From NCBI RefSeq assembly GCF_000003605.2, contig NW_003120922.1, positions 374,045-406,265 of the forward strand: a stretch of DNA of 32,221 nt. The letters run 5' to 3'. Positions 6,104 to 31,154 of the stretch are shown here, one piece after another (positions within the stretch are counted from its first letter, which is position 1; every line of letters begins with the position of its first letter). A program made the translations under genes and the position numbers. Source of the stretch: Saccoglossus kowalevskii. Its lineage: Eukaryota; Hemichordata; Enteropneusta; Harrimaniidae. The notes under the pieces are model-generated. The model searched no databases and was not told where the DNA came from. It saw only the letters and a program-made list of their open reading frames with translations.

Positions 6104-6236
6104 TTAAAGGGCGGCAGTCGTCATGCCGCGTCCTGTTCGATATGGGACTCATAGCGACGTATACAACGCGTGTAAAATACATTGTTTATTTACATGGAAT
6201 TCGAACACGCGCTGCGCGACGACCACCGCGCTTTAA
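6104..6236 (+). mobile_element. MITE, 125-bp family, copy 1, with TTAA at both ends
   Basis: The element 6108-6232 is flanked by TTAA on both sides. Its ends (AGGGCGGCAGTCGTC and CGACGACCACCGCGCT) are imperfect inverted repeats. It is closely similar and equal in length to 14430-14562 in the same orientation. No coding capacity; short frames across it are incidental. TTAA duplication points to a piggyBac- or Kolobok-type transposase acting in trans (inference). Confidence 0.75.
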
Positions 6237-14429: not shown

Positions 14430-14562
14430 TTAAAGGGCGGCAGTCGTGGCGCCGCGTTCTGTTCGATATGGGACTCATAGCGACGTACACAACGCGTGTA
14501 AAATACATTGTTTATTTACATAAAATTCGAACACGCGCTGCGCGAAAACCACCGCGCTTTAA
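14430..14562 (+). mobile_element. MITE, 125-bp family, copy 2, with TTAA at both ends
   Basis: The element 14434-14558 has TTAA on both sides. It matches copy 1 along its whole length with a few substitutions (for example ATGCCGCGTC against GCGCCGCGTT near the left end). Long shared runs include GATATGGGACTCATAGCGAC and AATACATTGTTTATTTACAT. Left terminal repeat AGGGCGG, right CCGCGCT. Confidence 0.75.
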
Positions 14563-15559: not shown

Positions 15560-16085
15560 ATTCCACTTTCAGCTGTTCAATCATATCTAACAATAAATTC
15601 ACAGAAAAATAATCAAATCCAGAAACAAATTTACTCGAAAATATTTTTAGCGGGAAAAAATAAATTAAACGAAGATTAATGTCGTATGGAATAATTTCCG
15701 GGTACTTATTGATACTTAATGACTGCCGCAACGTTCTTCAATAACCATCACCACCTACGGCGCAAGAATGTTTCAACTCAAGACAAATATACGATGTTTT
15801 TAGTAATATCATCAACGGCCCACCCCCTGAGATGAACAGGGTAATTATGTCAGAATCACGCTACAGGCGTGCTATCTTGAATCGTTTATTATTTTTTGCA
15901 CATATGCATGAAAAGTCTGGAGTCGTATATAAACCCGTAAGATTTGATGAGCTGCTTCTTTTCCCAGTAACAGTGGCACTTAAGCAAATAATGACGTCAC
16001 GATCAGCAGGGTTGCGTTGCGTTGATGAGTACAGAGGATATTCACATTGCGTATATACAATAAAGACATGTTCATTTCTGTTCTA
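14724..16085. other. No supported gene
   Basis: CRE palindromes at 15290-15297 and 15992-15999, an X-box-like GTTGCCATGG at 15024-15033 and a TATATAAA at about 15926. The poly(A) tract is listed separately. Confidence 0.5.
15528..15558. repeat. Poly(A) tract, 31 A
   Basis: Longest homopolymer in the window. The minus-strand frame with a Phe run (15315-15731) simply reads through it. Confidence 0.9.
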
Positions 16086-16252
16086 TTAAAGCGGGAGCGT
16101 CGTCACCTGCGCACGCACGGGAATTGAGTCCCATGATGCGATGATAACAACACAAGTTGAGAACGCAAAGGCTCGTGGGTAGACGCTTGTTTGTAAACAA
16201 TTACACGCCATGGCCACCTGACGCATGTGTAGGTGAAGACTCCCCCGCTTCA
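16086..16252 (-). mobile_element. MITE, ~160-bp family, minus-strand copy
   Basis: The left end is TTAA then AGCGGGAGCGTCGTCACCTG; the right end is AGGTGAAGACTCCCCCGCT then TTCA, a mutated TTAA. Terminal inverted repeats are about 30 bp. The interior (reversed) carries the same TTTACAAACAAGCGTCTACC and GGGACTCAATTCCCG blocks as the copies at 30001 and 31043. Non-coding; a 190-codon minus frame crosses it by chance. Confidence 0.75.
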
Positions 16253-24819: not shown

Positions 24820-25019
24820 CAGTCGGCTATCATTGTTCGTTGCGCAATCGAACGAAACTATCCCTGGGCTATCCGTCACATAATGACATCAAATGTTACG
24901 GGAAAGTATTTATTTGTAAGCAACCAATTACCAGGGAACACGAGTTTTAGCTTTGAGAAACCAGAGGGCTGTCCAAGTTGGCATTAGCGTTGCTATAACA
25001 ATCGGGGTATCTGATACTA

Positions 25020-25045
25020 TCCTCGGGGGCGGAGCAACGTCACAG
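25020..25045. promoter_or_regulatory. GC box next to CRE-like element
   Basis: CCTCGGGGGCGGAGC (Sp1/KLF-like) is followed at once by AACGTCAC (CRE-like). It lies 410 bases upstream of the insulin-like start codon inside a CpG-rich 137-codon chance frame (24953-25366). It could be the proximal promoter; CAC|GTAAGA at 25207-25215 is a possible donor for a 5'UTR exon. Inference only. Confidence 0.3.
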
Positions 25046-25440
25046 ACGTTCCACGTTGCTACGACGCGCACCACTGTACATGCATTTCTATGGGCTCTGT
25101 GCGCGCTGCTGTGGAACGCCGGTAGAGCCGGTGAAAATTCGAGAAAACAACACAAACTCAACTTTGAAGTAATCCCGAACAACCAAATTTATATAGTATG
25201 TTACACACGTAAGACTAATCTTGTTACACTGTTCAGAGGAGTCTCAACAATCATCCCAAAATACCGTTTTCTGCGAGTTTTGGGCCTTTGTTTTCACCTC
25301 CTCCGGTTGCCAGGCGGTGAAAATGCCCGGATGTCCACCCCCGAGGATTCCAAGAACCATCACTGAGCTCAATCTTTTATTCATATCAAGGTTTTTATCG
25401 GCATCATCTACTTAGCGCCCCATGTTAATATATCTCTGTC

Positions 25441-25457
25441 TTAATTTTCAGGTAACC
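25441..25457 (+). other. Splice acceptor and short 5'UTR in front of the insulin-like start codon
   Basis: A pyrimidine-rich run (ATCTCTGTCTTAATTTTCAG) ends at 25451, followed by GTAACC and then the start codon at 25458. This implies a spliced 5'UTR whose upstream exon was not located. A transcription start just upstream, without splicing, is the alternative. Confidence 0.5.
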
Positions 25458-25659
25458 ATGGATACAAAAAGCCCAACAAATCTCAGCTTAAAGCTTATCA
25501 TATTTATAGTAGTAATAACAATGTTAATGTCGACGTGTTACTCAATGTCTAGAAACTGGCATTGTGGACGACCTGTTGAGACCATGCACGAGGTATGTCA
25601 GGGATGCTACGCCGGACATGTAAGGCCGAGAAATACAAGGAGTGTAGACGGTGTTCAAG
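25458..25659 (+). CDS. Insulin-like (octinsulin-type) preprohormone, exon with signal peptide and B chain; join with 27017-27267
   Basis: First coding exon of a secreted insulin-superfamily hormone; the spliced CDS is 25458..25659 + 27017..27267, 150 aa. Seen: ATG in a strong context (ACCATGG) six bases after a pyrimidine-rich acceptor (AG at 25450-25451), so an upstream 5'UTR exon is likely. Residues 1-29 form a signal peptide with hydrophobic core LKLIIFIVVITMLM (11-24). The B chain has Cys36, Gly37, Cys47 and an extra Cys50 in HCGRPVETMHEVCQGCY; the Cys-Gly start is an insulin/IGF B-chain hallmark. An RNTR furin-like site (58-61) may end the B chain. The exon stops in the C peptide at CAAG|GTAAGT, phase 1, the conserved position and phase of insulin-family introns. 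Odd: ten residues separate Cys36 and Cys47, where canonical B chains have eleven. Family assignment is firm; the octinsulin label is inference from the eight-cysteine pattern. Confidence 0.85.
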
Positions 25660-27016
25660 GTAAGTAGAGGCCATAGTAATCAACTTATTTGCATATTTCG
25701 CACATTGCTGAGTGTGAACAGGGTGAGCATTTTGCCATCTCTCGCAAGTCATCCCCAAATTTGGCACACTGGGGATCCATTCAAGCAATGTGGGGGAAAT
25801 AAACATCAAATTTTCAATATTACTTATTAAGAGAAAAATATTTATTTAAATATTATTGAAATTACAAAATCTTCCATAATTGATATGCATATTGCAATCG
25901 ACTTGCACACTCTTTAACAAATGGACGCCAGTTGTATTAGTTGTAATAATACGTTTCAAGCTGAACTTTTCAAACTTGTTTTCAGCTAATATGAAAATAT
26001 ATAGATTTTTGAACGGCAATAAGACTCAGTTAAAAAAATCCACGCCTCCCCAGAAGATTGATAGTTCGCTGAGGGTGTTAATTCAATAACGTACTCGTTA
26101 TCTTAGATCGGGTGTGATAACCAGCCTGAGAGTGTTGTATAAATCGTATCCTATAGCAACATAGCGCTTCAGTGACGTGTGTGAGTGAACAAAAATTGCG
26201 TTTAAATCGTGGATATTGTAGTTATGATTGGTTGTCGTCCTTTAAGAATAAAGATCCTTTTTTTTTTTTTTTTTTTTTGGAGAAATTTTACTAAATTCTA
26301 AATGACGAACGCCTACACGACCAAACGTAGTTTTCTGTTTGAACGTCATTACTTATATTCATATACGTCATTTTGACGTAACCGATTGCGAGGTGGCGAA
26401 TATGCGATTTCTTTAATTGTCGATATTTCCCATGGGACATGGCACGGTCGTGAATCCACCACTGTGAGTTCTCCGATAAGTGTGCAGCGCCCTCGCTCTC
26501 TTGTGAACCGCACTTTAAATGAATGTAGCTGGTTGGTTACTTAGACCGAAGGGAATACTTATACATTCATTTTTATATTGACCTTTATATAACACAATAA
26601 ATTACGTGAGAAGTGAAGAGCACGAACACCTGAAGTATTTAATAGCTTGAAAAAATAACAATGTTATGCTGTAAGATGACATCATTAGTCGATACTGCTC
26701 GTGTGAGCGAAAACTTTCTATACTAGCTAATGGTCGGGCCCAATTTGTAGTTCTGAAACACAGGGAGTGGACCTTGAAATAATTTTAGAAAATATTGAGT
26801 ATTAATATTTATGGCAGAATTGATTAATTGGGAATATTTGATATATTGATAATCTTAAATTTAACAAAAATGCAATTAGATCGCCGAATGACGAAGAGAA
26901 TAAAATACACGTAACCATAACTAAGTTTTCGTGGCGGAATCCATTAGTGTTGAAACGTGATCTGTGAATATCATTCTGTTTTATAAATAAGTTGTCTATT
27001 TCTTCTTTTGTCCCAG
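25660..27016 (+). other. Phase-1 intron of the insulin-like gene
   Basis: The intron runs from GTAAGT at 25660 to CCCAG at 27016, 1357 bp, and interrupts the C-peptide coding sequence between codon positions 1 and 2. A phase-1 intron here is conserved across vertebrate insulin, IGF and relaxin genes and many invertebrate homologues. It contains a 21-base T tract (26258-26278) and a near-match to the CTCF core on the minus strand (about 26485-26495). I see no additional exon or transposon in it. Confidence 0.8.
26258..26278. repeat. Poly(T) tract, 21 T, in the insulin-like intron
   Basis: Homopolymer run inside the intron, about 740 bases before the acceptor. Confidence 0.9.
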
Positions 27017-27267
27017 CATTCATCAGCAGACGAGATGCCAATATGTTTACCAAGGGGATGTCACCGGATGTAAAACGCGCCATTGATGGCGGCCTCATTG
27101 AAGAATGCTGCTACTCGCAGTGCAGTTTAACTCATATGATTACGTACTGTTGTGCTGAAGTGCAAAATGAGTTCCAAGTGTTTATAAATATTCTGGGTAA
27201 TACGGATGAAAGCAGTGAAAATGATGGCGATGATGGGGAGGAGAGCAGTAGTGTACATGAAGATTAG
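27017..27267 (+). CDS. Insulin-like (octinsulin-type) preprohormone, exon with C-peptide end, A chain and acidic tail; joins 25458-25659
   Basis: Second coding exon (residues 68-150) of the insulin-like hormone. Seen: acceptor TTCTTCTTTTGTCCCAG directly before 27017; the phase-1 join makes an Ala codon and keeps the frame open to TAG at 27265-27267. Dibasic sites RR (72-73) and KR (87-88) would release the C peptide. The A chain starts after KR and contains GGLIEECCYSQCSLTHMITYCC: CC, three residues, C, eight residues, C is exactly the insulin A-chain signature, and the GLIEECC start resembles the vertebrate GIVE/GIVD motif. An added Cys113 next to Cys112 gives five A-chain cysteines; with three in the B chain, one extra interchain disulfide is possible. 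Residues 114-150 are an acidic tail rich in Asp, Glu and Ser, placed like an IGF E domain. Known family role: ligand of insulin/IGF-type or relaxin-type receptors; which one applies here cannot be read from sequence. Confidence 0.87.
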
Positions 27268-27612: not shown

Positions 27613-27680
27613 AATAAACAAAACTTATTTTTTGTGTTTTATGGAATTATTTTTCCATTTACCTACAAATCTGAAATAAA
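27613..27680 (+). terminator. Polyadenylation signals for the insulin-like transcript
   Basis: Canonical AATAAA hexamers occur at 27613-27618 and 27675-27680, about 350 and 410 bases past the stop codon, with T-rich sequence after each. A third AATAAA lies at 27842-27847. Which is used cannot be told from sequence. Confidence 0.5.
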
Positions 27681-30000: not shown

Positions 30001-30169
30001 TTAAAGCGGGAGAGTCGTTACTTACGCATGCGTCAGGTGGCCATAGCGTGTCATCGTTTACAAGCAAGCGTCTACCCATGAGCCTTTGCGTTCTTAGAGT
30101 GTGTTGTTGTCTTAGCTTGGGACTCAATTCCTGCGCATGCGAAGGTGACGACCCCCCCCCCCTGCTTCA
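30001..30169 (+). mobile_element. MITE, ~160-bp family, plus-strand copy
   Basis: Starts TTAA, AGCGGGAGAGTCGTTACTTA, and ends GAAGGTGACGAC, a C run of 11 or 12, TGCT, then TTCA. Element body 30005-30165, 161 bp. Terminal inverted repeats of about 30 bp each contain CGCATGCG. It matches 31043-31154 and the reverse complement of 16086-16252. Confidence 0.75.
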
Positions 30170-31042: not shown

Positions 31043-31154
31043 GTGTTTACAAACAAGCGTCTACCCATGAGCCTTTGTGTGTTTAGCGTGTGTTGTTGTC
31101 GTCGCTTGGGACTCAATTCCCGCACGTGCGCAGGTGACGACCCTCCCGCTTTAA
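31043..31154 (+). mobile_element. MITE, ~160-bp family, 5'-truncated copy
   Basis: Similarity begins near GTGTTTACAAACAAGCGTCT and continues to the right end GCAGGTGACGACCCTCCCGC then TTTAA (TTAA at 31151-31154). The left terminal repeat is missing. Confidence 0.7.

Follow-up and report, generated by a model that had tools for sequence, protein, structure and literature searches.

The window examined here, 32,221 bases of a Saccoglossus kowalevskii contig (NW_003120922.1, C1344 below), contains a two-exon gene of the insulin superfamily that is, with high likelihood, a Saccoglossus octinsulin gene. It is very probably the same gene already described by Veenstra (2021), and the family is known rather than new: its species range, its copy number and its linkage have already been published, and the gene confirms what was described. 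What the present analysis adds is a definite prediction of how a fourth disulfide would be paired, and a genomic setting, with two octinsulins and an IGF on one contig, that makes Saccoglossus a clean place in which to ask about the ancestral ligand of LGR3.

Structure of the gene

Two exons on the forward strand are predicted to splice into a precursor of 150 residues. The earlier note had read the same stretch as a two-exon insulin-like gene, and that reading is borne out by a GT-AG intron in phase 1, an uninterrupted 150-residue frame and a match of the spliced product to the Pfam Insulin family (E 3.9e-7; score 31.4 bits, cut-off 23). The features, in window coordinates, are as follows.

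25450..25451, + strand: acceptor-like AG with a pyrimidine-rich stretch before it, 6 bases before the ATG
25458..25659, + strand: coding exon 1, running from the signal peptide through the B domain into the C domain and ending in the donor AAG/GTAAGT
25458..25544, + strand: putative signal peptide, residues 1-29, with hydrophobic core LIIFIVVITMLMSTC; placed by hydropathy, cleavage point predicted
25545..25640, + strand: B domain, residues 30-61, with Cys36, Cys47 and the extra Cys50, and RNTR at its end
25660..27016, + strand: phase-1 GT-AG intron of 1357 bases in the C domain, as read from the sequence
27017..27267, + strand: coding exon 2, 251 bases (remainder of the C domain, A domain, C-terminal tail, TAG)
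27073..27078, + strand: Lys87-Arg88, likely convertase site ahead of the A domain, as judged by sequence
27079..27153, + strand: A domain, residues 89-113, with Cys98, Cys99, Cys103, Cys112 and the extra Cys113
27154..27264, + strand: tail beyond the last cysteine, its EVQ..F..F part resembling the paralogue and the rest acidic and unshared
27613..27618, + strand: candidate polyadenylation signal AATAAA, with another at 27675-27680

The start codon at 25458 lies within AACCATGG. Exon 1 contributes 202 coding bases up to a consensus donor, and the intron is therefore in phase 1; its pyrimidine-rich acceptor ends at 27016, with TTCTTCTTTTGTCCCAG directly before exon 2. When the four acceptor offsets from 27016 to 27019 were compared, the frame stayed open to the TAG at 27265-27267 from 27017 and from no other. 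The span from ATG to stop is covered by two exons with a single coding intron between them, an additional upstream coding exon being possible, and the signal region and B domain lie close together in exon 1.

A chance open frame as the origin of the gene was ruled out by counting motifs against 20 dinucleotide shuffles. In the visible part of the contig (111,230 bases), the strict A-domain motif CCx3Cx8C occurs three times in six frames (shuffle mean 0.15, maximum 1) and the B-domain motif CGx9Cx2C twice (shuffle mean 0.4, maximum 3). A looser A-domain pattern gives six matches, half of which are the insulin-family exons of the octinsulin gene, its paralogue and IGF, while the other three are not insulin-family exons. 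Elsewhere in the window, none of ten open frames picked from the longer ones, among 82 stop-to-stop frames with 70 or more residues, has a Pfam match at E 0.1, ARAGORN finds no tRNA, and Rfam returns nothing at its gathering score.

Acceptor-like AGs, each following a run rich in pyrimidines, precede the ATGs of all three insulin-family genes on the contig, at 6 bases in the window (25450-25451), 24 bases in contig stretch L025 (about 1377) and 11 bases in L001 (about 394). Their placement suggests a 5' UTR intron common to the octinsulin gene, the paralogue and IGF.

The precursor and its cysteines

The product belongs to the insulin superfamily. Among PDB sequences its best match is IGF-II (E 1.9e-4), followed by IGF-I, and the best-matching stretch comprises residues 70-118. 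Past the signal region there are eight cysteines, three in the B domain (36, 47, 50) and five in the A domain (98, 99, 103, 112, 113), a count that assumes signal cleavage after Cys27, which lies in the signal region itself. The same set had been counted in the earlier note, and it holds in the spliced product. As to the B domain, the three cysteines stand as proposed, and the spacing is amended to C-x10-C; the neighbouring IGF has C-x11-C, with one residue more.

The hydrophobic N-terminus suggests that the precursor would enter the secretory pathway, where cuts at two predicted convertase sites, RNTR (residues 58-61) behind the B domain and KR (87-88) ahead of the A domain, would release a secreted peptide of two chains, B and A. 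If it is a peptide hormone of this kind, its most likely source would be neuroendocrine or enteroendocrine cells, the cell types suggested for other octinsulins.

Neighbouring paralogue and IGF gene

A second gene of the same type lies in the same orientation on the contig, starting 67 kb downstream (C1344:466488-466656 and 468628-468809). Its product of 116 residues is 40% identical to the 150-residue product in a MAFFT alignment; it too has a phase-1 intron in the C domain, and it keeps all eight cysteines with identical spacing. Conservation of the two extra cysteines, which the octinsulin reading supposes, was thus found in the paralogue, the one sequence compared. The A domains open alike, with GLIEECC in the octinsulin gene and GIIEDCC in the paralogue, both resembling insulin and IGF. 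The paralogue has RQSR before its A domain rather than KR, its own KR sitting earlier, and its spliced product scores 21.1 bits with Pfam Insulin, under the cut-off of 23, while its A exon by itself scores 23.8.

A search of the genome with the 150-residue product (E up to 10) returned six matches. Four of them are exons, two from the gene itself and two from the paralogue; the other two are weak. Both weak matches were dropped as insulins, the one on C3809 (E 2.09) because the motif is absent and the one on C1400 (E 2.75) because it falls inside a retroelement-like frame. A search with the paralogue product yielded four matches, all of them exons of these two genes. The genome therefore holds at least two octinsulin-type copies. 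The Pfam Insulin profile, run over the genome at E up to 10, gave at least four candidates, all of them matched and all on this contig; these four profile matches are two IGF exons and the A exons of the octinsulin gene and its paralogue.

The IGF gene shares contig and strand with both (C1344:525766-525940, 526811-527451 and 528016-528237), starting 126 kb downstream of the start of the octinsulin gene and 124 kb past its end. Its introns are in phase 1, in the C domain, and then phase 0, and its C-terminal region is basic, as described for ambulacrarian IGF in the account of Veenstra (PMC8286064). The octinsulin gene has in common with it the insulin domain, the phase-1 C-domain intron and the strand. 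The IGF differs in having six core cysteines, a C-x11-C B domain, a second intron in phase 0 and a long basic C-terminal region, whereas the octinsulin gene reaches its stop in exon 2 after an acidic tail. An IGF identity for the octinsulin gene was rejected on introns. A motif scan of the 111,230 visible bases found no dilp7 gene; these belong to a stretch of 200,000 bases, the remaining 88,770 of which read N.

Assignment to the octinsulin family

Octinsulins, as Veenstra (2021, PMC8286064) describes them, have eight cysteines and one phase-1 intron, occur in all ambulacrarians, are present in several copies in hemichordates, and in several genomes have IGF and dilp7 as neighbours. The legend of Figure 5 in that paper gives them typical KR sites, and S. 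kowalevskii, one of the genomes surveyed, is named in the legend of its synteny figure. The proposal that our gene is of this ambulacrarian type agrees with that description at each point of likeness: eight cysteines, a phase-1 intron within the C domain as the sole coding intron, one KR site, a paralogue of the same spacing and hence more than one hemichordate copy, an IGF on the contig, and a Saccoglossus genome. The likeness is to the published description rather than to a published sequence, and the convertase sites depart from it in part, the B domain here ending in RNTR and not KR and the paralogue having RQSR ahead of its A domain. A further octinsulin-like peptide, that of Xenoturbella, is reported to resemble ambulacrarian octinsulin in sequence and to have the same atypical arrangement of cysteines (PMC11521371). 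Among the matches listed, the literature on extra insulin disulfides and eight-cysteine insulins in other animals held no closer family. Arthropod gonadulins, which have been proposed as octinsulin orthologues, have six cysteines (PMC7357564), and the proposed orthology therefore gains no sequence support here.

Could the gene instead be a peptide of the relaxin/RGP (GSS) or dilp7 type, with the extra cysteines a local gain? We think this very unlikely. Starfish RGP/GSS and vertebrate relaxin do share with it the insulin superfamily and a single phase-1 intron, and they are known to be ligands of RXFP/LGR3, which is the type of receptor put forward for octinsulin; neither is known to carry an extra cysteine pair. 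Although a single phase-1 intron is indeed common to relaxin/RGP genes (PMC11863921), and the A-domain spacing CCx3Cx8C is common across the superfamily, the A-domain start G[LI]IE[ED]CC is that of insulin and IGF, a local gain is at odds with two copies that carry both extra cysteines at identical places, and GSS is reported to be absent from hemichordates (PMC8286064). In dilp7 genes an additional phase-2 intron separates the signal peptide from the B chain (PMC11863921), and no such intron exists here because exon 1 encodes the two together; dilp7 identity was rejected on introns. Less credible still is that the gene is a decaying or unexpressed copy. Its long acidic tail, with no counterpart in the paralogue, might be read in that way, but frame, splice sites and start context are intact, and all eight cysteines have been retained at 40% identity to the paralogue.

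A predicted fourth disulfide

In the octinsulin product, three of the bonds would be the canonical ones of insulin: Cys36-Cys99, Cys98-Cys103 and Cys47-Cys112. The extra cysteines can be placed by comparison with IGF. At the end of the B domain, the C-NGR of IGF corresponds to C-QGC in the octinsulin gene and C-RGC in the paralogue; the A domain closes in YCA in IGF and in YCC in the octinsulins. At the B-domain end, where MAFFT introduced gaps, the sequences were lined up by eye at the last canonical cysteine of that domain. This alignment places the extra cysteines at insulin positions B22 and A21, which in some crystal structures and NMR models of insulin are joined by a salt bridge (PMC12302216). 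We infer that the fourth disulfide probably joins Cys50 to Cys113 (B22-A21), the simplest and likeliest pairing, and would thereby fix covalently a contact that in insulin is a salt bridge. Two features of the sequence bear on this pairing. The B helix is one residue shorter (C-x10-C), by which the disulfide register could shift, and a swapped pairing of Cys47 and Cys50 with Cys112 and Cys113 is conceivable.

Possible receptors

The likeliest receptor for octinsulin is a G-protein-coupled receptor of the RXFP/LGR3 type, though only at about even odds. In assigning octinsulin to LGR3, the gonadulin receptor, Veenstra relied on synteny, on a count of receptors and, in part, on there being no other ligand in sight (PMC8286064). 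Since then, starfish RXFP/LGR3 has been shown (2025) to respond to RGP1 and RGP2 (PMC11863921), a response that weakens the argument for octinsulin as the sole plausible ligand in echinoderms. In hemichordates, octinsulin is the best candidate for an LGR3 ligand because RGP/GSS is reportedly absent there.

Octinsulin might instead act through an insulin receptor tyrosine kinase, an alternative that we regard as unlikely while taking it seriously. The GLIEECC start of the A domain and the tyrosine before the A20 cysteine resemble insulin and IGF, and activation of receptor tyrosine kinases by octinsulin is left open in the legend of Figure 12 in PMC8286064. That paper nonetheless favours the gonadulin receptor, and a B22-A21 disulfide would probably restrain the C terminus of the B chain. 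Returning to the GPCR, one can imagine a more elaborate scheme wherein the hemichordate octinsulins are native RXFP/LGR3 ligands and the B22-A21 disulfide, in replacing the salt bridge, steers the hormone away from the insulin receptor and toward the GPCR. This scheme is speculative, and we doubt it more than we credit it.

Other features of the contig and genome

The contig carries at least two families of dispersed repeats. Copies of a repeat of about 133 bases lie in the window at 6104-6236 and 14430-14562, at C1344:488790-488922 and 527714-527846, and elsewhere; most full-length copies are 90-95% identical, and one sits within the second intron of IGF. The second family (window 16081-16250, 30001-30158 and 31044-31154) is represented many times on the contig, its copies sharing roughly 72-93% identity. 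Just upstream of the octinsulin gene, window positions 25019-25333 are about 70% identical to C1344:511308-511589 and 509252-509418, and are perhaps an old mobile element.

On the reverse strand at about 348.2-350.7 kb of C1344 (L003 4203-6746), an open frame of 848 residues contains repeated CC...CF units and is serum albumin-like, with a Pfam Serum_albumin match at E 2.5e-8 and 34.3 bits against a cut-off of 34.4. These units may resemble ECM1 repeats.

The observed/expected ratio of CpG is about 1.17 over the 111 kb of visible contig and 1.22 in the window, ranging from 0.88 to 1.37 by stretch; the CpG depletion usually left by DNA methylation is absent from these visible 111 kb.

The mitochondrial contig of the same genome matches Saccoglossus in both code and gene order. 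COX1 was recognised by Pfam and the remaining mitochondrial genes by eye. In COX1, COX2 and ND1, the genes examined for codon use, AAA reads as Lys, ATA as Ile and AGA, in one case, as Ser, and AGG is absent. COX1 runs in the opposite direction to ND1 and COX2. Cytb comes after ND5, and ND6, on the other strand, comes after Cytb. The same code is described for S. kowalevskii, in which the COX1 inversion is one of two changes relative to the Balanoglossus order (PMC3121625), and the ATA and AAA assignments and the nd5-cob order agree with PMC2697986.
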